Shown here one piece after another: positions 24,891 through 63,903 of a stretch of 64,000 nt of DNA. This DNA comes from Salinibacterium sp. G-O1 (lineage in GTDB: Bacteria > Actinomycetota > Actinomycetes > Actinomycetales > Microbacteriaceae): the NCBI RefSeq assembly GCF_030063305.1, contig NZ_JASISV010000001.1, positions 248,001 through 312,000 on the forward strand, written 5' to 3'. The translations under genes were made by a program, and so were the position numbers. The first letter of the stretch is position 1; the number at the start of each line of letters is the position of its first letter. The notes beneath the pieces are model-generated. The model had not been told where the DNA came from. It saw nothing but the letters and a program-made list of their open reading frames with translations, and searched no databases.

Positions 24891-24906
24891 GTTAGGGATC
24901 GCTAAC
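24891..24906. promoter_or_regulatory. TetR operator copy 1
   Basis: GTTAGGGATCGCTAAC has inverted arms GTTAG and CTAAC around a GATC centre. It shares the pattern GTTAGnGATCnCTAAC with the second copy, whose centre is 24 bases away. It lies four bases before the regulator's start codon, so binding should repress the regulator and dehydrogenase genes. Confidence 0.8.
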
Positions 24907-24914
24907 CTATTTTT

Positions 24915-24930
24915 GTTAGCGATCACTAAC
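24915..24930. promoter_or_regulatory. TetR operator copy 2
   Basis: GTTAGCGATCACTAAC repeats the 16-bp operator pattern GTTAGnGATCnCTAAC. It lies eight bases before the first candidate start of the carboxylase beta gene. The two copies together occupy most of the 52-base divergent promoter, which implies simultaneous control of both transcripts. Confidence 0.8.
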
Positions 24931-47971: not shown

Positions 47972-48559
47972 CTAGCTGACCGCATCTCGCCAGAGCGAGG
48001 CAATCAGTGAGTGGCCGTACGGCGTGGGGTGCACACCGTCGTACGCGATCGCCGCCGGTCCCTGGCCTGATGCTGCAGCACTTAAGGGTGCTTGCAGCGC
48101 GACGTGGGTCGCCCCGTACTCCGAGGCGATGGATGCGACGACGGCCCTCTTGAGGTCGACGTCGTCGGTGAACGCTTCCTGAGCCGCCGTGAGAGGCAGA
48201 AGAAACGGTTCCATAAGCACGAGTCGCGGATGCCCGCTCGCGAGTGCTCGATCAAGCAGATCACGGTACGCCCGAGCGAACTCGTCGGGGGAAGTGTGCT
48301 CACCTGGCTCGGCGCGGCGCCAGGTGTCGTTGATTCCGATGTACACCGAGAGAAGGGTGGGCGCGTGGGTCATGGCGTCCGCAGACCACCGCTGTTGCAG
48401 ATCTGCGATGCGGTTGCCGCCGATCCCGCGGTTGATGACTGTGGTCTCCGGCCCCAGGTGGTCAGCGAGAAGACGCACATACCCGCGGCCGAGAGGTGCG
48501 TCTGCTTCGTCGAAGCGGCCGGTCTCGGTGATGCTATCGCCGATGAACACGACCCTCAT
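47972..48559 (-). CDS. SGNH/GDSL-type esterase
   Basis: A 195-residue SGNH hydrolase with block I VFIGDSITETG (nucleophile Ser9), the glycine in RGIGGNRIADL, block III GINDTWR, and the catalytic Asp and His in DGVHPTPYGH. It lacks a signal peptide, so it acts in the cytoplasm. It overlaps the GH130 gene by four bases. Enzymes of this kind remove acetyl or other acyl groups from carbohydrates, so it probably deacylates an imported sugar of the locus. Substrate is inferred. Confidence 0.87.
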   Translation of the reverse strand: MRVVFIGDSITETGRFDEADAPLGRGYVRLLADHLGPETTVINRGIGGNRIADLQQRWSADAMTHAPTLLSVYIGINDTWRRAEPGEHTSPDEFARAYRDLLDRALASGHPRLVLMEPFLLPLTAAQEAFTDDVDLKRAVVASIASEYGATHVALQAPLSAAASGQGPAAIAYDGVHPTPYGHSLIASLWRDAVS

Positions 48560-49656
48560 GCCGACGCCCCCCGCCAGGTGAGATGTGCCGCACCGATCCG
48601 GGTGTCAGCCATGCCGTAGAAGAAATCAAAGCCTCCAGCCCTCGACTCGATTGCGGTGGGGAAGACCACGTTGTTCACGATCCCTTCGCGCTCGTCGGAA
48701 GTCTCCGGAAGCAGAATGGGCAGGGCCGTGCGCCCAATGAGCTTCGTGACATCCGTCGCATCAAACAGCATCGCGCCCGCGCTGTAGAAGACGTTCTCCT
48801 GCTGATCGACTCCCTTCACCCATTCCCCGCGAACCCCGTGGTGAATCGTGAGCCAGCCCTCCGGTACGCGGACGGGCGGAGTGCCGCCCCCGATCTTGAG
48901 CTGCTCCCACTCGTGCTCTGGCATAGCGACCAGGGTGTGCTGCTCCCAGGAGCGCAGCCAGGCGAGGGATTCGCGGCGCCGGGAGATCGGCAGGAAGGAC
49001 ATCCAAATGCCCAGCCGCGGGTCCTCGATGCCAGCGGGGAGCGGCTCGCCGGCACCCGAGATGATCTCGTCGAGATCCCAAATGGGCCGGTGGAGCATTG
49101 CCAGGGCGGGCTGACCATCTGGCGCGGTTACGACCTCGGGAAACAGCAACGCGTCCTTGTTGCGATAGAGGTTGAAGTCGGTGGACCACCGCGACTCGAA
49201 CGCGAAGTCGACGACGCCGAGCCGCTCCCAGTTGAGCAGGTCGGATGACGCGGCGAGAGCGATCCGCGGCCCGAACGGCCCGTATGCGGCGTACGTCATG
49301 ACCCACATGTTGATGGCGTCGATGCGGGTAATGCGTGGATCCTCGGTGCCGGCGGTGCGCGCATTCTTCTCAAAGGGCAGCTGGGGTTCGAGCGCGAACC
49401 CGTCGCGTGCAACCGATGTGGGCACGCCGTCCGTCTCGATGAGGCGCGCTCGACCTATGCGTGAGTAGTTGCCCCCCCCGACCACCCTCGGAAAGAGCCA
49501 GGTCGTCCCTTCTGCGTCCCGTGCGGATGCTGGGTTGAGTACGCCCTCAGCTTCGCGGGGGTCGTCAGGGTCAGGCGTCATGACCGCCCCGAGTCGCTCA
49601 ACCTCGATCCAATCGCTAAGTCGATCGCCGATCTGAAGTGTCGCGGACTCTGTCAT
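48556..49656 (-). CDS. Glycoside hydrolase family 130 phosphorylase
   Basis: A 366-residue five-bladed-propeller protein of GH130-type. The active-site segments are GTEDPRI (acid Asp), STDFNLYRNKDALLFPE and the phosphate-binding GGGTPPVRVPEGWLTIHHG. Characterised members phosphorolyse beta-mannosides, giving mannose 1-phosphate and a shorter sugar. It lacks a signal peptide, so it works on imported oligosaccharides. ATG 49656 has GGAG eight bases upstream and fits the alternative ATGs. It is divergent to the LacI gene and overlaps the SGNH gene, which suggests one unit. Confidence 0.88.
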   Translation of the reverse strand: MTESATLQIGDRLSDWIEVERLGAVMTPDPDDPREAEGVLNPASARDAEGTTWLFPRVVGGGNYSRIGRARLIETDGVPTSVARDGFALEPQLPFEKNARTAGTEDPRITRIDAINMWVMTYAAYGPFGPRIALAASSDLLNWERLGVVDFAFESRWSTDFNLYRNKDALLFPEVVTAPDGQPALAMLHRPIWDLDEIISGAGEPLPAGIEDPRLGIWMSFLPISRRRESLAWLRSWEQHTLVAMPEHEWEQLKIGGGTPPVRVPEGWLTIHHGVRGEWVKGVDQQENVFYSAGAMLFDATDVTKLIGRTALPILLPETSDEREGIVNNVVFPTAIESRAGGFDFFYGMADTRIGAAHLTWRGASA

Positions 49657-49691
49657 GTCATTCTCCATTGAACTGTTTGTGTTGCGTATTT

Positions 49692-49706
49692 CAAGAAAAT
49701 CTCTTG
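49692..49706. promoter_or_regulatory. Candidate LacI-family operator
   Basis: CAAGA at 49692-49696 and TCTTG at 49702-49706 are exact inverse complements with a five-base AT-rich spacer in the divergent GH130-LacI promoter. The whole 130-base gap is much more AT-rich than the flanking genes. No reliable -35/-10 pair could be assigned. Confidence 0.45.
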
Positions 49707-49789
49707 CAATGTCAATAATCATGCTACGGTATTTATACGCATTACAAAACCGGCCGGGATACTTCTCGGCGAACGCACGAGGAGGTGCC

Positions 49790-50878
49790 ATGGAGAAGAA
49801 CGCCAACGCGTCAACGCGACGCGTAACGCAGGCTGACGTCGCCCGGCTCGCCGGGGTGAGCCAGGCAACGGTGTCGCATGTCATCGCGAGCCTCGAATCC
49901 GGCACGTCACGCGTCAGCGACAAGCTGCGCACGAAGGTCACCGAGGCCATCGACCTGACGGGATACGTTGTCAATCCGATCGCCCAGCGCCTCGCCGGCG
50001 GTCGCAGCGGCTTCGTGGGTGTGTTCACCTACGAGCCCATCTTCGCGGGGGAGGCCGACAGCTTCTACCACCCGTTTCTCGTGGGTGTCGAGCGTGCTGC
50101 CGAAACCGCAGGCTGGAACCTGGTGCTCTTCACGGGTGCCGCCAAAACCGAGGGTCGGCGACGCATGCTCGCCGACGGTGCGCGCTCACTGTCGGTAGCC
50201 GATGGATGCATCCTCCTCGGCTTGCACTACGACGCTCGCGACCTCGAAGCCCTGCTCAACGAGCGCTTCCCATTCGTATTCATCGGCGCTCGCCATTCCG
50301 ACGCCGGAACCGTGCCGTATGTAGCGCCGGACTATGAGCCTGCGACTCGCGACGTGCTCGATCTCATGTTCGCCTACGGACACGGACGCATTGGATACGT
50401 CGGCGATCTCAATCCCGAGCAGGTTAACAATGTGCGCTTGCGCGTCTACCGGGATGTCATGAGATCGATGGGCGATCAACCCGGCGTCTTCATCGACTCG
50501 ACAACGACGCCGTCAATCGTTCTCCAACAAGTTCTCGACAACAGGCTCACAGCGGTCGTGACCGACAACACGGGCATCGCGGGCATGTTGCGCGCAGAGG
50601 CCCAGGAACGCGGCATCCGAGTACCGGAAGACTTGTCAATCGCCCAGCTGGGTGACGCCGAGATAGCCGACGAAGTGGACTGGACCGGATTCCACATCCC
50701 TCGCGATGAACTCGGTTTTGAGGCCGTGAGGCTGCTCGCCGAACTTATCGACGGTACTTCGAGCCCCGACGATTTGCAACGCCTTTTCCCCTGCGCCGTC
50801 ATCGACGGCACCACCGCGGGCCCCGCGCCCCGAACGCCGTCGAGCGAGACCAGCAGCTCTCGAGGGGTGGAGCTGTGA
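49790..50878 (+). CDS. LacI-family transcriptional regulator
   Basis: A 362-residue regulator with the N-terminal HTH TQADVARLAGVSQATVSHVI (residues ~14-33), a hinge helix and a periplasmic-binding-protein-like sugar domain (from ~residue 75: GFVGVFTYEPIFAGEADSFYHPFL). The last ~20 residues are a polar tail. ATG 49790 follows GAGGAGG. It is the first gene of a plus-strand unit with the FAD oxidoreductases and sugar importer, and divergent to the GH130/SGNH pair, so it is the obvious local regulator. Its stop overlaps the next gene's GTG start. Confidence 0.92.
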   Translation: MEKNANASTRRVTQADVARLAGVSQATVSHVIASLESGTSRVSDKLRTKVTEAIDLTGYVVNPIAQRLAGGRSGFVGVFTYEPIFAGEADSFYHPFLVGVERAAETAGWNLVLFTGAAKTEGRRRMLADGARSLSVADGCILLGLHYDARDLEALLNERFPFVFIGARHSDAGTVPYVAPDYEPATRDVLDLMFAYGHGRIGYVGDLNPEQVNNVRLRVYRDVMRSMGDQPGVFIDSTTTPSIVLQQVLDNRLTAVVTDNTGIAGMLRAEAQERGIRVPEDLSIAQLGDAEIADEVDWTGFHIPRDELGFEAVRLLAELIDGTSSPDDLQRLFPCAVIDGTTAGPAPRTPSSETSSSRGVEL

Positions 50879-52485
50879 CGTCATATCGTGCAGACGTCGC
50901 AGTGATCGGCGGCGGACTCGGCGGGGTTGCGGCGGCGATTGCGGCCGTCCGGCGCGGAGCGACCGTAGTGCTGAGCTGCGAAGAGCCCTGGCTGGGCGGG
51001 CAATTGACCTCCCAGGCGGTGCCGCCCGATGAGCATCCCTGGATTGAGGACATCGGCGCCACTGCGACCTACCGAGCGTTGCGAGACGGGATTCGTGCGT
51101 ACTACCGCCGAAGTTTTCCCCTCGACTCACGGGCGCGGGACCGTGGCGATCTTAACCCCGGAGCGGGGTGGGTCAGCAAGCTGTGCCACGAGCCCAAGGT
51201 CGCTGTCGCCGTTATCGAAGAAATGCTCGCGCCATGGGTCTCTGGCGGCCAGCTCACGATTGTGCGATTGGCCAAGCCAGTCGCGGCGGAGGTCAACGGC
51301 GCACGAGTGACCAGCGTGCGGTTGCTGAGCCAGACAGCGGGTGACGTTGAGGTCGTCGCAAACTATGTGGTCGATGCGACCGAACTCGGCGACCTGCTGC
51401 CCCTGACCGGTACCGAGTATGTGACGGGATTCGAGTCGCGCGACGACACGGGAGAACCACACGCGCCTGCCGTTGCGCAACCAGACAATATTCAGGCCCT
51501 CACCGTCTGCTTTGCCCTCGACCACGTCGACGGCGACCACACGATCGACAAACCTGAGCAGTACGAACACTGGCGCGCGGCGGCTCCCGCCGCCTGGGGT
51601 GGGCCGTTGCTCAGTCTCGAGGCGCCGCATCCCCGAACTGGCGAGAAAGAATATAAGGTCTTCCAGCCGAACCCTGGCGACGACGCCCTTGCCGTGGACG
51701 CCGATCAGAGTGTGGTGGCCGGTCACGACAACCTGTGGCTGTTCCGCCGCATCGCGGCCCGAGACATGTTCGAACCCGGAGCCTATGCCAGCGACATTTC
51801 GCTTGTGAACTGGGGCATGATCGACTACCTCGAAGAGCATGTCATTGATGTGGATGACGCGACGATGGCATCCCGGATCGGCGATGCACGGCAGCTCAGC
51901 CTCTCGCTCCTGTACTGGCTGCAAACCGAGGTTCCGAGGCTCGACGGTGGTCACGGTTGGCCGGGACTGCGCCTGCGCCCCGATGTGACTGGTACCGACG
52001 ATGGCCTGGCGCAGGCTCCGTACCACCGTGAGGGTCGGCGCATCCGCCCGCTCCGCCGCGTTGTGGAGCAAGACCTGTCGCTTGCCGTGCGCGGCGGCCA
52101 TGGAGCTGTGCACTATCCAGACAGCATCGGTATCGGCATGTATCGCATCGACCTGCATCCCTCGACGGGTGGCGATGGATACATCGACGTGGCATCGTCG
52201 CCGTTCGAGATCCCGCTTGGAGCTCTCATCCCCGAGCGCATGGAGAATCTGCTGGCGGGCGCCAAGAACATCGGCACAACCCATGTGACGAATGGTTGCT
52301 ACCGCCTACACCCGGTTGAGTGGAACGCCGGCGAAGTCGCCGGCCTTCTTGCAGCCGACTGCGCGCTTTCGGGCCGCACCCCACACCAGGTCTGGCACGA
52401 CGGTCGCCTCCTCGGCGACTTCCAGGGCCTCACAGAACGCTTCGGCATTCCTCGCAGATGGCCAGAAGGAGTTTCGGGCTATTAG
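50875..52485 (+). CDS. FAD-dependent oxidoreductase, glycan-locus paralog 1
   Basis: A 536-residue cytoplasmic flavoprotein. The FAD dinucleotide motif is AVIGGGLGGVAAAIAAVRRG, and the following GGQLTSQAVPPDEHPW is typical of a family often mislabelled xanthan lyase. The C-terminal half carries PFEIPLGALIP, AGAKNIGTTHVTNGCYRLHP and HPVEW, likely flavin- and substrate-lining. It has no signal peptide and no golvesin domain of its own. It begins with a GTG that overlaps the LacI stop codon. The substrate is unknown; a carbohydrate oxidation is the simplest guess. Confidence 0.8.
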   Translation: MTSYRADVAVIGGGLGGVAAAIAAVRRGATVVLSCEEPWLGGQLTSQAVPPDEHPWIEDIGATATYRALRDGIRAYYRRSFPLDSRARDRGDLNPGAGWVSKLCHEPKVAVAVIEEMLAPWVSGGQLTIVRLAKPVAAEVNGARVTSVRLLSQTAGDVEVVANYVVDATELGDLLPLTGTEYVTGFESRDDTGEPHAPAVAQPDNIQALTVCFALDHVDGDHTIDKPEQYEHWRAAAPAAWGGPLLSLEAPHPRTGEKEYKVFQPNPGDDALAVDADQSVVAGHDNLWLFRRIAARDMFEPGAYASDISLVNWGMIDYLEEHVIDVDDATMASRIGDARQLSLSLLYWLQTEVPRLDGGHGWPGLRLRPDVTGTDDGLAQAPYHREGRRIRPLRRVVEQDLSLAVRGGHGAVHYPDSIGIGMYRIDLHPSTGGDGYIDVASSPFEIPLGALIPERMENLLAGAKNIGTTHVTNGCYRLHPVEWNAGEVAGLLAADCALSGRTPHQVWHDGRLLGDFQGLTERFGIPRRWPEGVSGY

Positions 52486-52501
52486 CAACGCCGGAGTGAG
52501 A

Positions 52502-52534
52502 CCCCGCGACGGCATGCAGGCCGCGCGGGGGTTT
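52502..52534 (+). terminator. GC-rich hairpin between the oxidoreductase and binding-protein genes
   Basis: CCCCGCG at 52502-52508 pairs with CGCGGGG at 52524-52530 around a 15-base loop, followed by GTTT. It may partly terminate transcription or protect the downstream mRNA, raising the binding protein relative to the enzymes. No independent promoter was identified after it. Confidence 0.5.
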
Positions 52535-52581
52535 ACACACAGCACCAGAACCGCAAAACAACCACAGCAAAGGAGCTGCAC

Positions 52582-53874
52582 ATGAATACTAACCACACCA
52601 AACACGCTCGCCGGATCGGCGCCGCGTTCACTTCGATGCTCATGGTGGGCGCCCTCGCGGCCTGTTCTACCGAGCCAGCACTGCCCGACGAACCGGTAGA
52701 CCTCACCGTCGCCCTCTGGTCGGCAAACGAGGCACACCTTGCCCTGTTCAACGAGATCGGCGCCGCGTACGTGGAGGCGAATCCCGACCTCGTTTCGTCC
52801 ATCACGTTCGAGACCATCCCCTTCGACGCCTATACAAGCACGCTGACTACCCGTATCGCGGCGGGTGACCCGCCCGACCTTGCCTGGATGTTCGAAAGCT
52901 CGGCACCAGAGTTCGTAGATGCTGGCGCACTTGTTGACCTCACAGAGACCCTCAGTGCGACCGAGGGTTACGACTTCGAAGACCTGAATCCGAGCGCGAT
53001 GAAGCTGTGGACCGAAAGCGACTCGACCTACGCATACCCGTTCTCGACGACGCCCCAGATTTTCATGGTCAATAACGACCTCTTCCACGCGGCAGGAATC
53101 CCGACCGCGCGCGAAATGTTGGAGGCAGGTGACTGGACGTGGGACGGCATTCGTGATTCCAGTGCCGCCATCCTCGCCGCCACGGGAAAGCCCGGCTTCC
53201 CTGTGCGGCTCGACCCGGCAGTGTGGCAGTACCTTGCCTTGATCTGGGAGGGATTCGGCGCATCCCCATGGAGCGAGGACGGCACGGAGTGCACGTTCGA
53301 CTCGCCTGAGATGGTGGAGGCTCTCGAGTTCATCCGCGACGGAGTCTATGTCGACGCTGCCTTCCCGAAGCCCGGCAGCAACTTCGACTTCTTCAGCGGA
53401 GGAGCTGCCATGGATGCCGGCGGTATCAGCCAGGCCAATAAGCTCGACGGCAGCTTCGACTGGGACGTGCTTCCGCTTCCCGAAGGGCCGGCAGGGCAAG
53501 TCAACATCATCGGTCAGGCAGGCATCGGCGTGCTGAAAGCAGGCGATAACCACGCGCAGGCGGCCGGATTCCTCGCCTACTACAGCAACCCCGAGAACGC
53601 CGCCAAACTGGCACAGTTCTTCCCGGCGCCGCGACTGTCACTCACTAACGTCGACGTGCTCGGTCCGGTGAACCCGGTACTCAGCGCTGACCAGCTGCAG
53701 GAAATCGTCGTAGATACGGTGACAGACGCCCAGACGTTCCCGTCGCACGCGAACTTCGCGGCAATCAGCAACGCAGTGCAGCCACTGTTCGACGGAATCT
53801 GGACGGCAGACTCCGACATCCCGAGTATCGCGGCTGACGTTTGTGGCGTGATGAAACCCCTTCTGGAGCGCTAA
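52582..53874 (+). CDS. Sugar ABC transporter substrate-binding lipoprotein
   Basis: A 430-residue family 1 solute-binding protein. The signal peptide ends in the lipobox ALAAC (Cys28), followed by an acidic linker and the binding fold (LTVALWSANEAHLALFNEIGAAYVEANP, SFDWDVLPLPEGPAG). It should be anchored outside the membrane and deliver an oligosaccharide to the two permeases that follow. The start has AAAGGAG at good spacing. The operon has no ATPase gene, as is common when a shared MsmK-type ATPase is used. Confidence 0.92.
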   Translation: MNTNHTKHARRIGAAFTSMLMVGALAACSTEPALPDEPVDLTVALWSANEAHLALFNEIGAAYVEANPDLVSSITFETIPFDAYTSTLTTRIAAGDPPDLAWMFESSAPEFVDAGALVDLTETLSATEGYDFEDLNPSAMKLWTESDSTYAYPFSTTPQIFMVNNDLFHAAGIPTAREMLEAGDWTWDGIRDSSAAILAATGKPGFPVRLDPAVWQYLALIWEGFGASPWSEDGTECTFDSPEMVEALEFIRDGVYVDAAFPKPGSNFDFFSGGAAMDAGGISQANKLDGSFDWDVLPLPEGPAGQVNIIGQAGIGVLKAGDNHAQAAGFLAYYSNPENAAKLAQFFPAPRLSLTNVDVLGPVNPVLSADQLQEIVVDTVTDAQTFPSHANFAAISNAVQPLFDGIWTADSDIPSIAADVCGVMKPLLER

Positions 53875-53877
53875 ACC

Positions 53878-54825
53878 TTGTCAACTGTACGTCCACTACT
53901 GTTGGGGAGCGCCCGGCGCGGCGCTCCCCAACGGGGACCGAAGCTTTCACGTCAACGCAAGAACGACATCTCGACGGCGTACGCGATGATCGCACCATCT
54001 ATTCTCGGTGCCGCCGTGTTCGTGGTGTACCCGCTTGTCGCGCTGTTCTGGTACTCGGTGCAGGATTGGCGACCGCTCGCAGGTGGTCCCGAGTTTTCCG
54101 GGCTGGACAACTACATTCGGCTGCTCTCTGACACCACTCTGCGGGACTCGCTTATTGCCAGCGGAATCTTCTCCGTCGGGCTGGTCGCCCTGAACATGTC
54201 GATCGCTCTTGTGCTCGCCGTGCTGCTCAATCAGAAGCTCGCTGGCACAACCGTCTTTCGCACGATCTTTTTCTCGCCAGTGGTGGTTTCGCTTGTCGCG
54301 TGGACCCTGGTGTGGACCTTCCTGCTGCAAAACAATGGCGGCATCAACGCCCTCTTTTCGCTGGTGGGCCTTGAGGGCCCCAACTGGCTCAAAGACACAG
54401 GGTGGGCGATGCTCTCGGTGATTGTGGTTCAGGTGTTCAAGGGCGTCGGGCTCAACATGATCCTGCTCCTGGCTGCGTTGCAGGACGTACCGGAAGAGCT
54501 CGTTGAGGCCTCTCGGATTGACGGCGCGAGTCGTTTCAGAGTGTTCCGTTCGATCACGATGCCGCTCATCAGCCCGACCTTGCTCCTCGTGTCGATTGTG
54601 ACAGTGATCGGATCGCTGCAAGTCTTCGCGCAGATACGCATCATGACCGGTGGTGGTCCGTCGAATTCGACCAACGTGCTGGCCAACTATCTGTATCAAG
54701 TCGCCTTTGAGGTGAAGGAGTTCGGCTACGGCAGCACAGTCGGAGTCGTCATGTTCGTCGTCGTCCTCGGCCTGACTCTCGTGCAATGGCTCGCCAGAAC
54801 GAAGTGGGTTCACAATGAAAACTAG
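53878..54825 (+). CDS. Sugar ABC transporter permease (MalF type)
   Basis: A 315-residue permease with about six membrane helices and the EAA-type loop EASRIDGASRFRVFRSITMPLISP. The N-terminus is basic and polar (residues 1-~38). The TTG at 53878 lies three bases after the binding-protein stop codon, with GGAG about 12 bases upstream; other starts would be inside the family domain. It overlaps the second permease by 11 bases. Confidence 0.9.
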   Translation: MSTVRPLLLGSARRGAPQRGPKLSRQRKNDISTAYAMIAPSILGAAVFVVYPLVALFWYSVQDWRPLAGGPEFSGLDNYIRLLSDTTLRDSLIASGIFSVGLVALNMSIALVLAVLLNQKLAGTTVFRTIFFSPVVVSLVAWTLVWTFLLQNNGGINALFSLVGLEGPNWLKDTGWAMLSVIVVQVFKGVGLNMILLLAALQDVPEELVEASRIDGASRFRVFRSITMPLISPTLLLVSIVTVIGSLQVFAQIRIMTGGGPSNSTNVLANYLYQVAFEVKEFGYGSTVGVVMFVVVLGLTLVQWLARTKWVHNEN

Positions 54826-55675
54826 CCGCACGCTCACCGCCTCGAAGAAGTGGCGCGGATCCGTTATCGCCCTCTACTCGGCGCTCATCCTTCTGACGAT
54901 TCCCTTCCTGTTTCCGGCATGGTGGATGGTGTCGTCCAGCTTCAAGCCGCTCAGCCAGATCATGGAGTATCCGCCCACGCTGCTGCCGCGTGATCCGACC
55001 CTGGATGCGTACGTTGCGGTGTTCGAGCAGCCGTTCCTGTTGCAGTACTGGAACAGCCTTTACATCGCAGTGCTGGTGACTCTTGGCACACTCGCGGTAT
55101 CCGCGATGGCCGGCTATGCGTTCGCTCGAATCCGGTTCCCAGGCGTCAACGCGCTCTTCCTGGTGGTGTTGCTTGGGCTCATGCTGCCAGCCGAAGTGAC
55201 GATCATCCCGCTCTTCCAACTCTTCACAGCACTCGACCTCAACAACACGCATTGGCCGCTCATCATCATGCCGATCTTCGGAGCCTCCAGCGTGATGGGT
55301 ACATTCGTGATGCGGCAGTTCTTCCTCGGGATTCCACAAGAGCTCGAAGACGCGGGATCCATGGATGGCCTGAACCGCTTCGGAATATTCCGCCGAATTG
55401 CGCTCCCGCTCGCGCGCCCGTCACTTGCGGCCGTCGCTATCCTCAGCTTCCTTGCGTCGTGGAACGCCTTTCTCGAGCCACTCGTCTTTCTCTCGAGTCG
55501 CGACAAGTTCACGCTGCCGCTTGCCCTCACCCAATACACGGACTCGGTCGGACTCCCGATCTGGAACGTGCAACAGGCGGCAGCCACCCTCACCGTGCGG
55601 CCAGTACTGCTGGTCTTTGTCTTCATGCAACGTTATTTCGTACAGGGCCTTGCCCAGACTGGAGTTAAGGGATGA
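54815..55675 (+). CDS. Sugar ABC transporter permease (MalG type)
   Basis: A 286-residue permease with six membrane segments and the EAA loop EDAGSMDGLNRFGIFRRIALPLARP. Segments such as IPFLFPAWWMVSSSFKP at the N-terminus are typical of the MalG side. It forms the importer channel with the MalF-type permease. Its stop overlaps the start of the second FAD oxidoreductase gene (ATGA), so enzyme and transporter are translated together. Confidence 0.92.
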   Translation: MKTSRTLTASKKWRGSVIALYSALILLTIPFLFPAWWMVSSSFKPLSQIMEYPPTLLPRDPTLDAYVAVFEQPFLLQYWNSLYIAVLVTLGTLAVSAMAGYAFARIRFPGVNALFLVVLLGLMLPAEVTIIPLFQLFTALDLNNTHWPLIIMPIFGASSVMGTFVMRQFFLGIPQELEDAGSMDGLNRFGIFRRIALPLARPSLAAVAILSFLASWNAFLEPLVFLSSRDKFTLPLALTQYTDSVGLPIWNVQQAAATLTVRPVLLVFVFMQRYFVQGLAQTGVKG

Positions 55676-57267
55676 CCGAGCTCAATGCCGATGTCATCGT
55701 GCTGGGTGCTGGCGTGGGTGGCGTTGCGGCCGCTCTGGCGGCGCTCGACGGCGGAAGCAGCGTCATCCTCACCGAGGAGACCGACTGGATAGGCGGGCAA
55801 CTTACCTCCCAGGCTGTGCCGCCCGATGAGCACCCGTGGATCGAGCAGTTCGGCGCCACGCGCGAGTACAGCCGATTTCGAGCCGGGGTGCGCGACTACT
55901 ACCGCCGCAACTACCCGCTGACCGCCGTCGCCGCCTCCCAGGCCGCGCTCAACCCCGGCGCGGGTCGTGTGTCCGGGCTCACCCATGAGCCGCGAGTCGC
56001 GCTCGCGGTTCTCGAGGCGATGCTGGCACCCTGGGTCGCGAGCGGAAAGCTCACGATCCTGATGAGGAACCGACTGGTGCGCGCCCATGTTGACGGCGAC
56101 CGTGTTACCGAGGTTGAGGTGCTCGACCTTATCGATGGGGGCACGACGCGCCTCCGCTCTGGAATGTTCGTCGACGCGACGGAGATCGGCGAACTGCTGC
56201 CCCTGGCTGGCATTGAGTATGTGACTGGTGCCGAGTCCCAAACTGACACCGGGGAGCTTCATGCCCCCCAGATCGCCGCGCCGCAGAATATGCAGTCGGT
56301 GAGCGTCTGCTTCGCGATGTCGCACCATCCCGGCGAAGACAACACGATTGAGCGCCCGCGGGACTATGAGTACTGGCGCGACTATCGGCCGGGCGCCTGG
56401 GGCGGATTGCCTCAACTCGGGTTCACCGCACCGCATCGCATTACCCACGAGCTCGTAACAATGAAGTTCGATCCGAACCCCGAGTTCGACCCTGCCGTCG
56501 GGCCAACGAGCGTTGACGACGATCTCCCGGCGCGCACGAATGCCTGGCTATTCCGGCGCGTGCTCGCCCGTGGACACCTCACCACGCCGGGAGTGAGTGA
56601 TATCACCCTCGTCAACTGGCCATCAATCGACTATCTGGGCGGCAACCTCTTCGAGAATTCTGCCGAGGAGGCCGCGGCTCACCTCGAGGCGGCGCGACAG
56701 CAAAGCCTCTCACTCATGTATTGGTTGCAGACCGAGGCAGGCTATCCGGGTCTGAAGCTTCGAGGTGACGTGGTGGGCACCCGCGACGGCCTCGCCAAGG
56801 CGGCCTATCACCGCGAATCGCGCCGCATCCTTGGCCTTGAAAGAGTCGTGGAGCAGGATGTCTCGGCGCTCGATCGCGACGGCCTGGGGGTGCGGGGCTG
56901 GCGTTCGTCGGTCGGCATCGGCAGTTACCGCATCGATCTGCATCCCTCAACGGGCGGCGACAACTACATCGATATTGCCGCGTATCCCTTCGAGATCCCG
57001 CTCGGAGCGCTCATTCCGCAACGGGTGCGCAACGTGATTGCGGGGGCGAAGAACATCGCCACAACCCACATCACCAATGGCTGTTACCGACTGCATCCTG
57101 TCGAGTGGAACATCGGAGAGGCGGCAGGTCGACTTGCGGCCTTCTGCCTTCGGGCAGGTACTGAACCGCACGCGGTTCTCTCGACAGATGAGACTCTTTC
57201 CGACTATCAGCGCACCCTGGAAACGACTGGTGTGCAGCTCCATTGGCCGAGGTTGCATAGCTACTAG
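55672..57267 (+). CDS. FAD-dependent oxidoreductase, glycan-locus paralog 2
   Basis: A 531-residue paralog of the enzyme at 50875. The FAD motif is IVLGAGVGGVAAALAALDGG, followed by the same GGQLTSQAVPPDEHPW. Conserved blocks include YWLQTE, PFEIPLGALIP, AGAKNIATTHITNGCYRLHP and HPVEW, but the middle portions differ, so the two may handle different linkages or steps. It lacks a signal peptide. A tandem duplication followed by divergence is the simplest origin, although the two copies are separated by three transporter genes. Confidence 0.8.
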   Translation: MTELNADVIVLGAGVGGVAAALAALDGGSSVILTEETDWIGGQLTSQAVPPDEHPWIEQFGATREYSRFRAGVRDYYRRNYPLTAVAASQAALNPGAGRVSGLTHEPRVALAVLEAMLAPWVASGKLTILMRNRLVRAHVDGDRVTEVEVLDLIDGGTTRLRSGMFVDATEIGELLPLAGIEYVTGAESQTDTGELHAPQIAAPQNMQSVSVCFAMSHHPGEDNTIERPRDYEYWRDYRPGAWGGLPQLGFTAPHRITHELVTMKFDPNPEFDPAVGPTSVDDDLPARTNAWLFRRVLARGHLTTPGVSDITLVNWPSIDYLGGNLFENSAEEAAAHLEAARQQSLSLMYWLQTEAGYPGLKLRGDVVGTRDGLAKAAYHRESRRILGLERVVEQDVSALDRDGLGVRGWRSSVGIGSYRIDLHPSTGGDNYIDIAAYPFEIPLGALIPQRVRNVIAGAKNIATTHITNGCYRLHPVEWNIGEAAGRLAAFCLRAGTEPHAVLSTDETLSDYQRTLETTGVQLHWPRLHSY

Positions 57268-57313
57268 GACGTCTCGCGTCTCGCGTCTGACATGAATCAA
57301 GGGAGATTTGTTG

Positions 57314-60300
57314 ATGAGTAATACATCTGGCCGTCGTGGTCTCGTGCGCTCGCGCGCGACCGCATTTGCTGTATTCGCCGTTCTGGTGATCGGAGCCGTG
57401 GTGTCACCTCACACGTCTGTCGCGTACGGTGTTGACCCGGTGAGCGGGGTTCTCCTGCGAATTGCGACCGTAACAGAGACAGCGGGGCAACCCCGAGTAG
57501 GGGCCTCGATTCGGCTTCCTCTCGTGGTTGATGCTGCCGAGCAGATCACTGCCGACGCTCTGTTCGTCGTTCGGGAGGGCGAATCGGATCCACTGCCCAC
57601 CCAGGTGGGAGGGCAGCGAGTCGAGGCTGGGCGAATGGTTGCCGCTGATGTCTACGTTGTGGATGACGTGGACGCGTTCGAGAAGGTGACGTATGAGCTG
57701 CGCCTTGCAGCGACATCCGTACCCACAGTCATCGCACCAATCGACGTAGTGGATGTACCGAGCGGGGTCACGATTGAGACAGCCGACCTTGAGGTCACCA
57801 TTCCTCGGACGGGTTCACAGGCTGGGACGATATCGACCTTGTCGGCGCCCGCTCTCGGCGTGAGCGGGACCGACCTGCTTGCCAGGGCGACCCTGCGTGA
57901 AGAGCGGATGATGAACGGCGACATCAATGCGGATGCCGAGGTTGAAGACAATGGCAGCGCGGCCGGTTGGCAGGGGGCGGCAGCCTCAGGTCCTGAGGTG
58001 CTGAGCTGGTCGAGTGACCGGTTTGCGAGCGGGGCGCATTCGCTAGCGATCGATACGACGCCGGCGGAAGCCGTCCAACTCGACCTCAACCCCAACGCTC
58101 TCATTATCGATTTCACCTCTCGGGGCTACGTGGAGACTGGGACGTGGCGCAACAGTGCGCTCGCTGGGTACCAGCAGCCCAGCCACCGGTACAGCACAAC
58201 GGCAGGGTCGACGGCGACGTTCTCCTTTACTGTCGCAACTGGCGATTACGACGTGTACGTCTGGATCCCTGGGAGCGTCTCGTCCGCACAGAACAATCCC
58301 GCTGCCGCGCCGTACACAGTGCAGGCTGTGGGCGGCCCGCAAGCGGTGACTCACAACCAACGCGAGGGCATTGGCACGTTCGCGCCGCTGGGCAGCTGGG
58401 CGCTCGACGGCGCAACAACCCTCGCCCTTGCGGCAGGCGGCACGAGCACCACCCGTGCAGACGCAATTCTCGTGCTCCCGGCCGGGCAACCCCTCATGCC
58501 ACGATCGTTCGCCGCCGACACAGGCTCTGCCGGCTATGTGGAGACGGGCACGTGGGCCACGAGCAACTACCCCGGAAATACTGCCAGCGCACATCGGTAC
58601 AGCATCACCCCAGGATCGAGAGCCACCTGGTCGTTTACCGGAATGGAACCAAGGGACTATGACGTCTACGTCTGGGTTCCTGCCGCTGGCACCAGCAACG
58701 GCTCCAATTCGTCCACCGCGAGCTACGAGATTGCGCACTCGGCCGGCACCTCGACAGTCGTGCTCAACCAAAAGTTGTCCACGAACTCATTCCAGCTCCT
58801 CGGCACTTTTACTATGGGTGCAGCAGGCAGTGTGGCTTTGACTCTGGATGACACAGCGCGTCACCGGGCCGATGCTGTCGTGCTCGTGCCGCACGGCGTG
58901 CCAGTGCCAGACCCCTTGCCACTGTCAGCCTCGCCAGGTGGTTCCTGGACTTCGGAGGCGGAAGCTGTCGCGCCGGGTGAGCGCCTTGCCGTTCACGCCT
59001 GGGGCGCTCGAGAAAATGCGGACCCTGGAGCCATTGTTTCCACTTCCGCACGGTTTCTCGACGGGAGCGGCACCGAGATTGGCCTGGTGCAGATTGGCGC
59101 TTTCGTCGATGCTTCATGGACTCGAGTGACCGGGGCCCTGACCGTCCCCGCAGCCGCGGCGTCGGTTCAGATCGTTCACGGTGTGGAGGGTCGGGCGAAG
59201 GCGTGGTTCGACAACGTCACCCTGTACAAGGCGGCTGCATCGGCAGCGGCTCTCTCTGCCGCGTCGTCTCGGCAGAACGTCAGCGTCGCGGTCGAGACGG
59301 GGGTTGCCGTCGTCATTGTCACCGTGGTGAACCAGCTCGTCGTCAGCGGTACTCCCAGGCAGGCTTATCAACTCGTTCAGTACCGAATTCCTCGAAACGG
59401 CAGCAGCATTTCTCAGACCGTGGAATATCGCGGAACGTCCGATGTGTCCGATGCCCCGGAATCAGTTGCTGCGACCTCCCTCGTCGTTCTGGATGGACAG
59501 TGGACGCTGCCTGGCGGCGGTGCGCTGAGCACCACTGATTTCTCCATAGCTCTGGGCGACTCCGATTCGGGTCTGGATACCGCAACGGCGGTCGTTTCCA
59601 CCGTAGGATCCTCGGCCGTAATCGTCGTAGGGTCGAACGTCGATACCGTCACGTCGGTCGGGGTCAACGGCGCGCGCGCGACATTTAGTGGCCCGACGCG
59701 CAAATCGACAGGTGTAGCGACGTTTGCCGAGCGCTACCTGCGGCAGGACCGCACTTGGTCAACGCTCGCCATTCTCGGCAATGATGATCCAGAAAGCTTG
59801 AGAGAGCGCTACCTCGTTGAGGCCAACCCGTTGGTTGCAAGCGTGGACGACCCCGGCGTTACCTTCGAGGATGACCTCGTTCCGCTGATCCGCGAACTCA
59901 ACGACACTATCCTCACGACCACCAATTCCAGCCTCGCTGAACGGGCCTGGACTGCTCGCGCGCTCGCGGCATACGTGAATGCGGATATCACTGCAGACCC
60001 CGCATACACAGCCATCGGTGATGCCATCATCGATGCCAATATTCGGCCTGAATACCTCACAGTGGCCTATCACGCTTCTCGATTCCAAAACGATGCGGCA
60101 CTGATCGACGAAGACTTGCAGCAGTTGCCTTTTCTCTACTACTTCAGTGGCGACGAGCGGTTGCCGCAGTATGCAGAAGCGATTGGTCTAGCCGCACTTC
60201 AGGAACTCGCTTTCGATGACAACAACGGCGACCGTGCTCTGGCGGGCTCGAAAACGGAGTTCGCTGCCCTCGAAGACCGTTCCTCGGTCAAGAACATGGC

Positions 60301-60976
60301 AGCAACCGCCGGCATGGTTTTCGTGTGGGGAATGAATCAGCGCGGGAACGTCGCTGGGCTTGAAGAGCTGCGAGAGATCTTCGAGGCTCCGCAGTTCGCG
60401 CAATGGGTTGGCGCGGGCGAGACTGCGTACATCGCGGTATCCAACGGCGACCAGGTAGCTGTGCGAGGTGACGCTGAACCGTACTACAGCAGCGTCGTCG
60501 CAGGCGTTATCCCCTTCATCGAGGAGGCTTCGGGCGGGGCAATAGACATGAGCGACAGTGGGGCGCACTCGATCTGGGCGTCCATATCCATCGACACGAA
60601 TGGCTTGGGGGAGGACGCGAGTGGGTGGCCCCAGTCCGACTATGTTCAAACCCACAGTCACCGCCTGGCCTGGAACCCCAGCGCACTGTGGCGGATGATT
60701 CCCGACCTAGCCGAGACCGATGGAGTGACCTTCGTCACTACGACAGCCAGAATCCTCGGTCGGTACGTTCAACTCACCCGCGAACCGGTCTCAGCAGATA
60801 CAGCAGAGTTGCAACTGCCGAACCTGTCTGACCCCGATTTTGGGCGACAGTTCAATCGGAATTGGTACAGCTCAGACGGGCTCACTCGAGAGACCAACCC
60901 CGGCGTGACGCAGAGCGTGGCGAAAGTGGTGAATATGATCTACTTCCACCATTTCTATCCCGGCGAACTCGGTTAG
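57314..60976 (+). CDS. Large secreted protein with two golvesin-like repeats and a split CBM4/9-like domain
   Basis: A 1220-residue protein with a signal peptide (basic start, hydrophobic AFAVFAVLVIGAVV). Residues ~40-190 are a beta domain like RIFT-barrel domains of polysaccharide lyases (weak). Residues ~198-245 look like the first half of a CBM4/9-type sandwich (NGDINAD...FASGAHSLAID), and ~540-645 like its second half (GSWTSEAEAVAPGE...AWFDNVTLYK). Between them lie two golvesin/Xly-like repeats, ~263-390 and ~400-526, each with YVETGTW, YDVYVW and a closing RADAxxxxP. A beta region and an all-helical C-terminal domain (~840-1130) of unknown function follow. ATG 57314 follows GGGAG; there is no C-terminal anchor. 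It probably binds or cuts the external glycan; catalysis is not shown. Confidence 0.75.
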   Translation: MSNTSGRRGLVRSRATAFAVFAVLVIGAVVSPHTSVAYGVDPVSGVLLRIATVTETAGQPRVGASIRLPLVVDAAEQITADALFVVREGESDPLPTQVGGQRVEAGRMVAADVYVVDDVDAFEKVTYELRLAATSVPTVIAPIDVVDVPSGVTIETADLEVTIPRTGSQAGTISTLSAPALGVSGTDLLARATLREERMMNGDINADAEVEDNGSAAGWQGAAASGPEVLSWSSDRFASGAHSLAIDTTPAEAVQLDLNPNALIIDFTSRGYVETGTWRNSALAGYQQPSHRYSTTAGSTATFSFTVATGDYDVYVWIPGSVSSAQNNPAAAPYTVQAVGGPQAVTHNQREGIGTFAPLGSWALDGATTLALAAGGTSTTRADAILVLPAGQPLMPRSFAADTGSAGYVETGTWATSNYPGNTASAHRYSITPGSRATWSFTGMEPRDYDVYVWVPAAGTSNGSNSSTASYEIAHSAGTSTVVLNQKLSTNSFQLLGTFTMGAAGSVALTLDDTARHRADAVVLVPHGVPVPDPLPLSASPGGSWTSEAEAVAPGERLAVHAWGARENADPGAIVSTSARFLDGSGTEIGLVQIGAFVDASWTRVTGALTVPAAAASVQIVHGVEGRAKAWFDNVTLYKAAASAAALSAASSRQNVSVAVETGVAVVIVTVVNQLVVSGTPRQAYQLVQYRIPRNGSSISQTVEYRGTSDVSDAPESVAATSLVVLDGQWTLPGGGALSTTDFSIALGDSDSGLDTATAVVSTVGSSAVIVVGSNVDTVTSVGVNGARATFSGPTRKSTGVATFAERYLRQDRTWSTLAILGNDDPESLRERYLVEANPLVASVDDPGVTFEDDLVPLIRELNDTILTTTNSSLAERAWTARALAAYVNADITADPAYTAIGDAIIDANIRPEYLTVAYHASRFQNDAALIDEDLQQLPFLYYFSGDERLPQYAEAIGLAALQELAFDDNNGDRALAGSKTEFAALEDRSSVKNMAATAGMVFVWGMNQRGNVAGLEELREIFEAPQFAQWVGAGETAYIAVSNGDQVAVRGDAEPYYSSVVAGVIPFIEEASGGAIDMSDSGAHSIWASISIDTNGLGEDASGWPQSDYVQTHSHRLAWNPSALWRMIPDLAETDGVTFVTTTARILGRYVQLTREPVSADTAELQLPNLSDPDFGRQFNRNWYSSDGLTRETNPGVTQSVAKVVNMIYFHHFYPGELG

Positions 60977-61043: not shown

Positions 61044-62096
61044 CTAACTCGCGCCTTGTAGCTGCCAGAGAAGTAGAGCTGTCGCGACACGCTGGCGGTC
61101 GAGGCCCGATCTCACCGACAGGCCGAAACGGCGTTCAATTGTCGCCAGTCGTGACTGAATGCTGCTGTGATGGAAATTCGCGTCGCGCGCCGCCGAGCGA
61201 AGTGAATCTGAGTGCAGCACGGTGTCGAGTATCCGGATGGATTCATCCCCACCCGGAGATGCGGCGAGGGACTCGATCTTGCGGACGTCTGGATCGTCGC
61301 GGACTAGGGCCGGCTCTAGTTTCGCAAGCGCGCCAAGTACTCCAACCTGGGTGGCCTCGAGTTGGCGGGGCCAGGAGCGGCCTAGTCCGGCAAAGCGGAG
61401 CGCGCTGCGCGCTTGGTTCCAGGCGACGGGCGCAGCGAGTACCTCGACGACGCCGCTACTTGCCGCCCGCAAGTCAATCGATACTCCGCTCCAGCTGATG
61501 GGCATTCGACCGGTCGTGACGACGATGATGATCTCTCGCGACAATTGAGCAGTAAATGCGGGACGCTGCCACGCGTCGCGAAGGCTCACTCCGAGTCTTT
61601 CGACTTGGGTTGAGTCGGAGAACTCGCCCTGGATTGCGATCAACTGCACGTGACTCGACGGGTCAATTCCCATCAGCCGGGCCGCGCGAGACCGCTCTGC
61701 CTCGTTGGCCTTTTCGTTGACGAGCAGTTGAGCCAGAGCGGGGTCCGCCAGTCCAGCGGCCAAATCCGCTTCGCCGCTGGGGGCCGATCGATTAACCACC
61801 GCGCTGACCGTGATCGCCATTCGCTCAAGAATGAAGTCGTCCAGGTCGCCACGAGTACCGCTACGGTCCAACCAGACCGAGCCGCCTGCACTGTCTTCAT
61901 GACCATCAATTTCTAGCCGCACAAAAGACTCTGACGGTGTTGCCCCTCGGACTTCGAACCCGTCCGGACCAAATACAACTCGAAGTCCAAGATGAGGCAG
62001 AGCGAGCCCGGCGGGGCAGTCTGCAATAATTGCGCTCGCTCTGACTACCGATTCGAGGCCCGGTTGGTGAATCAAGAGTTGGTCGAAATAGGACAC
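61044..62096 (-). CDS. PucR-type transcriptional regulator
   Basis: A 350-residue protein with a C-terminal PucR helix-turn-helix domain (LDTVLHSDSLRSAARDANFHHSSIQSRLATIERRFG) and an N-terminal sensor region with no clear family. PucR regulators control diverse catabolic genes. It lies directly downstream of the secreted glycan-locus protein, convergent with it, and divergent to hipB. Whether it regulates the glycan locus is unknown. A short alternative start cannot be excluded. Confidence 0.8.
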   Translation of the reverse strand: MSYFDQLLIHQPGLESVVRASAIIADCPAGLALPHLGLRVVFGPDGFEVRGATPSESFVRLEIDGHEDSAGGSVWLDRSGTRGDLDDFILERMAITVSAVVNRSAPSGEADLAAGLADPALAQLLVNEKANEAERSRAARLMGIDPSSHVQLIAIQGEFSDSTQVERLGVSLRDAWQRPAFTAQLSREIIIVVTTGRMPISWSGVSIDLRAASSGVVEVLAAPVAWNQARSALRFAGLGRSWPRQLEATQVGVLGALAKLEPALVRDDPDVRKIESLAASPGGDESIRILDTVLHSDSLRSAARDANFHHSSIQSRLATIERRFGLSVRSGLDRQRVATALLLWQLQGAS

Positions 62097-62181
62097 GACC
62101 CTCAGCGCTCGCTCGCCTGCAGCGTTGGCCCAGATATCTGCAGATTTGTCTGATGTATGTGTTATTTTTCGTTTGTACGGT

Positions 62182-62192
62182 ATGTATTACAT
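62182..62192. promoter_or_regulatory. Candidate HipB operator, site 1
   Basis: ATGTA and TACAT flank one T, forming an exact 11-base palindrome 58 bases before the hipB start, in an AT-rich region. Confidence 0.5.
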
Positions 62193-62200
62193 CGCGTCAG

Positions 62201-62209
62201 ATGTAACAT
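62201..62209. promoter_or_regulatory. Candidate HipB operator, site 2
   Basis: ATGT and ACAT flank a single A, repeating the core of site 1 eighteen bases away (centre to centre). Two such sites fit dimeric repressor binding as in hipBA promoters. Confidence 0.45.
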
Positions 62210-62249
62210 GAGTGTGACAAGAGTATGCCTTGGAGCTAAGAAGGGTCAG

Positions 62250-62606
62250 ATGCGCATTCGAACACCTACCGACTTCGGTGCTATCGCGCGACAGCGGAGG
62301 CGCGATCTAAAGCTCTCCCAGAACGCCCTAGCGGAGCGTTCGGGCGTGACTCGTCAGTGGTTGGTGCGGTTCGAGAAGGGCGGTAGCGAAGTCGCCTTGT
62401 CCAAAGCCTTTGCAGTGCTCGCGGAACTCGATCTAGTCGTGCGGGTCGACGCGCTCAGGTCGGGTGGCGACGCAATTCCGCGGTTACTGATTCCCAACAT
62501 GACCGTGTCCGAGTTGCGCATGGACTCAGCGAAGCTTTCGAAGGTCCGCGAGGCGATCCATTTCATCGACCGAGATTCATCGAACTCAGCGGTGCGGAAT
62601 GACTGA
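62250..62606 (+). CDS. hipB: HipB-type antitoxin, HTH regulator
   Basis: A 118-residue Cro/C1-type helix-turn-helix protein (RQRRRDLKLSQNALAERSGVTRQWLVRFEKG) with a C-terminal tail that ends in polar residues. It binds its own promoter and the toxin HipA. ATG 62250 follows AAGG by six bases; a longer frame upstream runs through the promoter region. It overlaps hipA by eight bases. Its AT content and codon use are less GC-biased than most neighbours, which fits horizontal gain, though this is only an impression. Confidence 0.87.
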   Translation: MRIRTPTDFGAIARQRRRDLKLSQNALAERSGVTRQWLVRFEKGGSEVALSKAFAVLAELDLVVRVDALRSGGDAIPRLLIPNMTVSELRMDSAKLSKVREAIHFIDRDSSNSAVRND

Positions 62607-63903
62607 AGATCTAGACGTCCATATGTATGGCTATCGTGTTGGGACTCTGACCCGAATCGCGACCGAGGACTATTTGCTCGTTTACGACGAAAATTGGTCG
62701 AGCGCCGACGAATCTGTGCCCCTATCCATTTCTCTTCCTCTGTCTCAAAAAGAACACCGTGGACGAGGGTTGACCAACTTCATCGACAACCTCCTTCCGG
62801 ACAATCCGGATGTGCGCCAACGATGGGCCACCGATGCGGGGCTCGACAGCGTTGAGCCGTTTCTTCTCCTTCGCGAATACGGGCAGGACGTAGCGGGTGC
62901 CGCATCCTTTCGGTCTTCGGGAGCGTCCGTGACCTCGACGAGGCGCATGATTACAGGTGCCGAGATCGCGGACCGCATTCGCGAGATCCGTAGTGACGAC
63001 ACCGCATGGCACGACGACCGACAACCGGCGCCCGGGCAATTCTCACTCGGCGGCGCCCAGAGGAAGTTTTCGCTTGCTCGACATGGCGAAGACTGGTTCG
63101 AGACCTCCGGCGATGATGCCTCAACACACTTGTTCAAGCCACAAGTCGAGGGCGTCCCAGACGGCGAGCTAGTCGAATACCTAGTCATGCGTACGGCCTA
63201 CTTGTTGGGGATTCCGACCGCGAGGGTGGAACTCTTCACAAGCGGCGGTCAGCATTCCCTCGTTGTCGAGAGATTTGACCGGCGCGTCGAGCACGGCCAA
63301 ACCATTCGGCTGCACCAAGAAGACTTACTCCAGGCGCTCGGCCAGCCGAAGCTGCGCAAGTACGAGAAACATGGGGGTCCCGGCATCGACTCGATTGCCG
63401 CGATGCTCTCCCAGCATGCAGATGCTGAGTCCCTCAGACGTTACGCAGCCATGCTGTTCTTCTCGTGGATCGTTCTTTCGACGGACGCGCACGCGAAGAA
63501 CTACTCGATCTTCCTGGGACCGGAAGGAGCAAGTCTGACACCGATGTACGACGCTTCTTCGGTGCTTCCATATCTCGGTCGCGATCCAGCACTCGACCAC
63601 CCCTCTCTCCGGCAACGTGCGAGCGAGATTGAACTATCGGTTCGCTTCGGGGCAAGCAATCTTGCGGGCGACGTAGCTCGATTCGAGCTTGAGACAGTAG
63701 CGCGCCAATGTCGAATGGCTAGCGATGACCTGCTGTCAGTTGTAGCACTGCAAATCCTTGAGATCGGGGACGTCATGTCTGACGCTGCCTCGGACATGCC
63801 CGCCGAGCTCCAAACGGACACGATCGCGCGCGTTGTGGATTGGATGCCGGTTCGCGCTAAGCAGGCGGCAGAAGCGATTGGTGTTGCGGGTCTTTTAGCC
63901 TGA
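62599..63903 (+). CDS. hipA: HipA-type serine/threonine kinase toxin
   Basis: A 434-residue kinase. The N-terminal subdomain (residues 1-~110) resembles HipA N1 (SISLPLSQ, LTNFIDNLLPDNPDVRQRW). The kinase core has FSLGGAQRKFSL (P-loop region), the catalytic segment STDAHAKNYSIFL (DxHxKN) and MYDASSVLP (metal-binding DxxS). HipA kinases phosphorylate glutamyl-tRNA synthetase or related targets and stop growth until HipB binds. The start overlaps hipB. Both motifs look intact, so the toxin is probably active. Confidence 0.9.
   Translation: MTEDLDVHMYGYRVGTLTRIATEDYLLVYDENWSSADESVPLSISLPLSQKEHRGRGLTNFIDNLLPDNPDVRQRWATDAGLDSVEPFLLLREYGQDVAGAASFRSSGASVTSTRRMITGAEIADRIREIRSDDTAWHDDRQPAPGQFSLGGAQRKFSLARHGEDWFETSGDDASTHLFKPQVEGVPDGELVEYLVMRTAYLLGIPTARVELFTSGGQHSLVVERFDRRVEHGQTIRLHQEDLLQALGQPKLRKYEKHGGPGIDSIAAMLSQHADAESLRRYAAMLFFSWIVLSTDAHAKNYSIFLGPEGASLTPMYDASSVLPYLGRDPALDHPSLRQRASEIELSVRFGASNLAGDVARFELETVARQCRMASDDLLSVVALQILEIGDVMSDAASDMPAELQTDTIARVVDWMPVRAKQAAEAIGVAGLLA

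Follow-up and report, generated by a model that had tools for sequence, protein, structure and literature searches.

A 64,000-nucleotide stretch of the Salinibacterium sp. G-O1 genome (the window; contig NZ_JASISV010000001.1, positions 248001-312000, labelled G000:C1 here, from a 3.14-Mb genome in 6 contigs) carries at 47,972-60,976 a nine-gene block that we read, with about even confidence, as a LacI-regulated glycan-uptake locus. In this reading, a core of five genes is extended by a second oxidoreductase dependent on flavin adenine dinucleotide (FAD), by an orphan secreted protein and by a divergent pair encoding a GH130 protein and an SGNH hydrolase. The core, for which we coin the name type A, consists of LacI, a FAD oxidoreductase, a solute-binding protein (SBP) and two permeases, mostly in the order LacI-FAD-SBP-permease-permease. 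The locus is most likely for a mannose-containing, decorated saccharide, and its exact gene combination appears to be a common cassette with local additions.

The nine genes form two divergent operons (Table 1), an arrangement that is well supported by the overlaps and short gaps between the coding sequences. On the minus strand, GH130 and SGNH overlap by 4 bp. On the plus strand, LacI, the first oxidoreductase (FAD1), SBP, permease, permease, the second oxidoreductase (FAD2) and the secreted protein follow each other with gaps of -4, 96, 3, -11, -4 and 40 bp. The frame listed for GH130 among the open reading frames (ORFs) is too long; its likely start is the ATG at 49668 (370 residues), which leaves 121 bp up to LacI, whose own ATG at 49790 is preceded by GGAGG. 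No operator-like palindrome was found in this 121-bp region. Elsewhere in the window, two LacI-operator-like matches lie inverted within 36 bp (24893-24928), upstream of an ORF at 24939; this is a weak signal, as the window holds 4 such matches and 3.4 are expected by chance.

Protein families were called by a Pfam profile scan with curated cut-offs, covering ten proteins in and beside the block. The genes named in an earlier note on this DNA (SGNH, GH130, two FAD oxidoreductases, importer, LacI and secreted protein) are all present with matches above the cut-offs. They also lie, as described there, in a single compact block that joins LacI and a sugar-type importer with a phosphorylase-type GH130, an esterase and two PF12831 enzymes. 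The secreted protein, given there as 1220 residues, does carry Golvesin repeats and appears secreted by eye, but it is 1222 residues long. With regulator, SBP, permeases and a carbohydrate-active enzyme in one block, the locus has the make-up of a Gram-positive-type glycan-uptake locus. The ten scanned proteins include no ATP-binding subunit for the importer; in actinobacteria, the import ATPase is usually shared and encoded elsewhere.

Table 1. Features of the locus, with positions in the window.
Feature	Position	Strand	Basis and remarks
SGNH/GDSL hydrolase, 195 aa	47972..48559	-	PF13472, 91 bits; likely deacylase
GH130 protein, 370 aa, beta-mannoside phosphorylase type	48556..49668	-	PF04041, 105 bits (cut-off 26)
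Intergenic region, 121 bp, common to both operons	49669..49789		Presumed promoter and operator
LacI-family regulator, 362 aa	49790..50878	+	PF00356 and PF13377
FAD1 oxidoreductase, 536 aa, type A cassette member	50875..52485	+	PF12831, 311 bits (cut-off 27)
Sugar-type SBP of ABC importer	52582..53874	+	PF01547 (SBP_bac_1), 103 bits
ABC permease 1, UgpA/MalF type	53878..54825	+	PF00528 (BPD_transp_1)
ABC permease 2, UgpE/MalG type	54815..55675	+	PF00528 (BPD_transp_1)
FAD2 oxidoreductase, 531 aa	55672..57267	+	PF12831, 312 bits (cut-off 27); overlaps permease 2 by 4 bp
Secreted protein, 1222 aa	57308..60976	+	Signal peptide by eye; PF25275 (Golvesin_C) twice

To place the core in a wider context, we compared 120 loci that contain relatives of the FAD enzymes, all scored alike: 30 places from 27 other FAD-bearing genomes of the same bacterial family, 10 of 37 matched plasmid records and the best 80 of 590 confirmed relatives in named genomes. 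SBP and both permeases lie near the FAD gene at 60 of these loci (40/80 named-genome, 13/30 same-family and 7/10 plasmid loci), and LacI at 70/80, 20/30 and 7/10, respectively. The type A cassette was found in Actinomycetota, Pseudomonadota and Deinococcota, and its members resemble those of the window, where the LacI, FAD, SBP and two permease genes are likewise adjacent (38-52% identity for SBP, with one outlier at 28%, 49-67% for permease 1 and 54-68% for permease 2). Within the family sample, FAD2 relatives at an E-value of 1e-60 occur in 27 of the 298 other genomes, and for FAD1, relatives were seen in 3 of 26 other genomes of the same genus. In one of these three same-genus genomes (L223), the 20 kb fetched contain the five-gene cassette but none of the parts that accompany it in the window.

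The additions to the core were not met again. At none of the 120 loci did we find, near the FAD relative, a window-type GH130, a window-type SGNH, the window's secreted protein or another closely related FAD enzyme. Recurrence of the five-part combination of the earlier note is not supported by these loci. That note would have given up its idea if the oxidoreductases and the secreted protein rarely co-occurred with GH130 and the importer: the oxidoreductase does accompany the importer, at half of the loci, whereas GH130 and the secreted protein do not join them. Its picture of a coherent glycan locus stays plausible as uptake plus oxidation, although the combination was not seen elsewhere. SGNH proteins of a different type, divergent to LacI, are present at 5/120 loci (3/80, 0/30 and 2/10), all of them alphaproteobacterial.

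FAD1 and FAD2 share 56% identity and match the PF12831 (FAD_oxidored) profile at positions 1-407 and 1-408 of 416. With a nucleotide-binding motif in their first residues and no signal peptide visible by eye, both are expected in the cytosol. In a Parabacteroides relative, the N-terminus is extended by what looks by eye like a lipoprotein or Tat-type signal. The AlphaFold2 model of FAD1 (pLDDT 92.9) has an FAD-binding fold, and the structural matches are to the general FAD fold only. By sequence, matches of the two enzymes to solved chains were confined to the nucleotide-binding part or to a short stretch, and our literature searches found no characterised close member of these PF12831 enzymes.

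In a phylogeny of 122 FAD rows, FAD1 falls inside a set of 61 rows, 55 of which are type A (Shimodaira-Hasegawa-like approximate likelihood ratio test, SH-aLRT, 95). FAD2 falls, though not firmly, outside the type A clade and groups with FAD enzymes from two Streptosporangiaceae (SH-aLRT 95). Operon type tracks this phylogeny, with 11 changes compared to 53 in shuffles. FAD1 and FAD2 each have closer relatives elsewhere, at 66% and 59% identity, respectively. In a thinned tree of 85 rows, neither the placement of FAD1 nor the grouping of FAD2 with the Streptosporangiaceae is starred, the branches of both enzymes are long, and an approximately unbiased (AU) test did not reject FAD1 and FAD2 as sisters (p 0.32). 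The nearest precedent that we saw for a pair of flavoenzymes is L053:7505-10726, where a FAD2 relative and a distantly related FAD-type gene form a tandem. The window's genome also encodes a third strong PF12831 protein (295 bits; a 752-residue ORF at L069:8306-10564, which is G000:C1 near 59-61 kb), with two ABC-permease matches upstream.

The FAD relatives also occur in a second setting, type B, at 27 of the 120 loci (24/80, 2/30 and 1/10). Here, SBP and the permeases are replaced, so that the row reads LacI, FAD, a hydantoinase/oxoprolinase-type protein, a ~200-residue protein and a DctM-type transporter. The hydantoinase-like protein has a weak likeness to the caprolactamase alpha subunit (87 bits against a cut-off of 1000), and two scanned members of the ~200-residue protein matched no Pfam family. 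Type B loci, often with a secreted propeller beside them, include L046, L110, L115, L120, L148 and 22 others. The remaining 33 loci are neither type A nor type B.

What surrounds the FAD relatives points to carbohydrates, judging by the families of the neighbouring genes (PL8, GH38, acetyl esterases, NanE, ROK, DUF4127 and the propeller). PL8 lyases lie near the FAD gene at 5/120 loci (3/80 named-genome and 2/30 same-family), AXE1 esterases at 8/80 and 7/30, NanE at 7/80 and 2/30, ROK at 8/80 and 1/30, and GH38 at 0/80 and 5/30. A secreted beta-propeller is present at 34/120 loci (28/80 and 6/30), comprising 20 of the 27 type B and 14 of the 60 type A loci; its similarity to GH43/GH117 is only weak, and 28 members form a cluster (L148:15843-16931, L039:2301-4016 and 26 others). 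NanE, a ROK kinase and/or DUF4127 (PF13552) adjoin the FAD gene at L143, L157, L166, L184, L186, L187 and L068, which suggests an amino-sugar or mannose product. A literature search found no text with 'DUF4127'.

Among solved chains, those closest to the window's GH130 are phosphorylases of beta-1,2-oligomannan and mannobiose (9fj8, 7fip), and the protein also matches a beta-1,2-mannosidase model and putative glycosidases. Its EDPR motif, K258 and H276/H277, which we take to be functional residues, are invariant in 17/17 rows (the window and 16 relatives). The EDPR, Lys and His positions align with those of 9fj8 and 7fip, but overall similarity to these phosphorylases is low and a central stretch of about 50 residues is unaligned. 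Relatives with 48-59% identity were seen in 69 of the 299 genomes of the family sample. These include the window's genome, in which there is a second copy that is not flanked by importer genes. All 15 other-genome loci that were fetched, out of 69 places, have LacI and two permeases next to GH130. These rows from the same bacterial family share with the window a GH130 that is 51-56% identical, LacI and a sugar-type importer, but their permeases are only ~29-36% identical to those of the window, and the fetched stretches yielded no FAD relative. A secreted-looking protein of ~670 residues was seen in or near the GH130 operon at 12 of 16 loci examined, which include the second copy in the window's genome (L197:7536-9557 and 11 other loci of L194-L207); the single member scanned had no Pfam or NCBIfam match.

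The SGNH protein shows GDS, GIND and DGVH blocks by eye, presumably the motifs of its family, and has relatives in 37 of the 299 family genomes. Aside from the window's genome, 13 genomes have relatives of both GH130 and SGNH. One of these has them 1.1 kb apart, with SGNH past GH130 in a row SBP-permease-permease-GH130-SGNH. The FAD relatives share genomes with both families: 13 of the 27 other FAD-bearing genomes have a GH130 relative, where 6.2 are expected (one-sided Fisher p 0.002), and 9 of 27 have an SGNH relative, where 3.3 are expected (p 0.002). The co-occurring FAD and GH130 genes are never nearer than ~27 kb, and FAD and SGNH co-occur likewise without linkage. Lifestyle or genome size could explain the co-occurrence of FAD and GH130 at the genome level.

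The secreted protein appears to be an orphan on the searches made. Its two Golvesin_C domains (residues ~266-387 and ~407-527) score 94 bits in all, and the rest has no other credible family match. As most of the protein is without a family match, the statement that ordinary endo-glycosidases are missing from the block is limited to Pfam matches, and this part may hide a catalytic domain. No full-length relative was found in family, class, 84,980-species or plasmid searches. Among 397 other family genomes there was one match, confined to the Golvesin region; the C-terminal 537 residues were found in 0 of 393 other genomes of the class, and the 84,980-species scan, whose reach is limited to close relatives, gave no match. 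The one plasmid match is to part of a Haloarcula protein whose annotation includes a PL8 domain; it covers the Golvesin domains at 29% identity. A single-sequence structure model was unusable. Beyond the secreted protein, at 61044-63903, the locus is adjoined by a PucR-type regulator (weak PF13556 match) and a HipA-like gene recognised by eye, in a stretch of lower G+C content (0.58-0.61).

The strongest outside evidence for a glycan role is the plasmid-borne xanthan utilization region described for Paenarthrobacter ilicis 6C (PMC12772297). That paper lists the region as PL8, N-acetylglucosamine kinase, manA, LacI, permease, permease, SBP, FAD-dependent oxidoreductase and LacI, followed by GH38, GH3, a second importer and GH9. 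At an optical density of 1.0, 13 of the 15 detected region proteins were significantly overabundant on xanthan (PMC12772297). The proteomics section does not name the FAD protein, the pathway section assigns the FAD enzyme no role, and the enzyme for the glucuronic acid step is stated as not identified (PMC12772297). As listed, the region shares with the window the permeases, SBP, FAD oxidoreductase and LacI in type A order, and mannose-related enzymes lie near its cassette. It differs in having PL8, GH38, GH3, GH9, the kinase and ManA, none of which is in the window's block. Paenarthrobacter was absent among the 37 plasmid records with a FAD match.

We lean towards mannose and acidic exopolysaccharides because of the neighbours of the FAD relatives (GH38, PL8, acetyl esterase, NanE and ROK) and the Paenarthrobacter xanthan region. 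The secreted protein would bind, and perhaps cleave, an extracellular polysaccharide. The importer, whose family indicates import and which would be powered by an ATPase encoded elsewhere, would take up a small decorated and probably mannose-containing saccharide. FAD1 and FAD2 would oxidise the imported sugar in the cytosol and pass electrons to an unspecified acceptor. By family, SGNH would strip acyl groups and GH130 would split a beta-mannosidic bond with phosphate.

Several points weigh against a glycan-uptake locus of this kind. The substrates and activities of all locus genes are assigned from family and context. As GH130, window-type SGNH, a second close FAD enzyme and the secreted protein were not found at any of the 120 loci, their tie to the cassette comes from the gene order of this one genome. 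The type A set around FAD1 loses its 95% support in the thinned tree. The FAD gene of Rhodococcus opacus sits with a major facilitator superfamily (MFS) transporter and a shikimate dehydrogenase, and the plasmid cassettes of Rhizobium, Allomeiothermus, Thalassospira and Agrobacterium have no annotated glycosidase within 12 kb (in incomplete annotation), so that some FAD settings suggest substrates that need no glycosidase. The likeness to Paenarthrobacter is one of gene order, and the pathway section of that paper gives its FAD enzyme no role. Furthermore, PL8 (PF08124) was found 0 times in the window's genome, while 3/3 other genomes were positive in the same search; the locus is therefore not a xanthan locus of the published type. 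A xanthan-type locus in which the orphan secreted protein takes the place of the PL8 lyase is very unlikely in our view: the published cassette order agrees, the Golvesin-covering stretch resembles the Haloarcula protein and PL8 lies near a few FAD relatives, but the block has no GH38 or GH3 match either and the catalytic ability of the secreted protein is putative.

A quite possible, if doubtful, alternative is that the block is a composite by chance, in which the cassette has its own small-molecule substrate (a sugar acid, polyol, cyclitol or similar) and the GH130-SGNH and FAD2-secreted protein pairs are independent acquisitions, neighbours of it without a common substrate. This would agree with the cassette standing without the other parts in the same-genus genome and on plasmids without annotated glycosidases, with the absence of the extra parts elsewhere, with GH130 relatives in LacI-ABC rows of their own and with the position of FAD2 apart from FAD1 in the 122-row tree. 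The 4-bp overlaps of permease 2 with FAD2 and of SGNH with GH130, the single 121-bp region that serves both operons and the higher than expected sharing of genomes by FAD and GH130 relatives argue against it. FAD1 and FAD2 may instead be a simple tandem duplication with one function, giving a higher enzyme dose or broader specificity and nothing else new. Their mutual identity, their long branches and the AU test allow such an origin, but both have closer relatives elsewhere and the 122-row tree places FAD1 with type A and FAD2 with the Streptosporangiaceae enzymes, a result that is not starred after thinning; we consider the duplication improbable. A broader proposal, to which we give equally little credence, is that the PF12831 enzymes of the cassette carry out an oxidative step in glycan breakdown that is general but has gone unrecognised. 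Their substrates would be sugars that hydrolases leave unfinished, for example pyruvylated or acylated mannose released by PL8, which they would ready for kinases, for GH130 or for enzymes that open lactams or lactones. The window would then be a two-flavoenzyme version dealing with two residues of different decoration, and a novel class of secreted depolymerase would feed it.

Our comparison uncovered a flavoenzyme cassette that recurs in the sugar-import operons of several phyla; polysaccharide lyases, mannosidases and esterases sometimes accompany it. To this, the window contributes a two-enzyme case and an orphan secreted protein. The main point of interest is that the type A cassette is common, yet we found neither a role for it nor an informative solved relative. 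As its gene order is conserved, its function is directly testable with the five-gene cassette alone.

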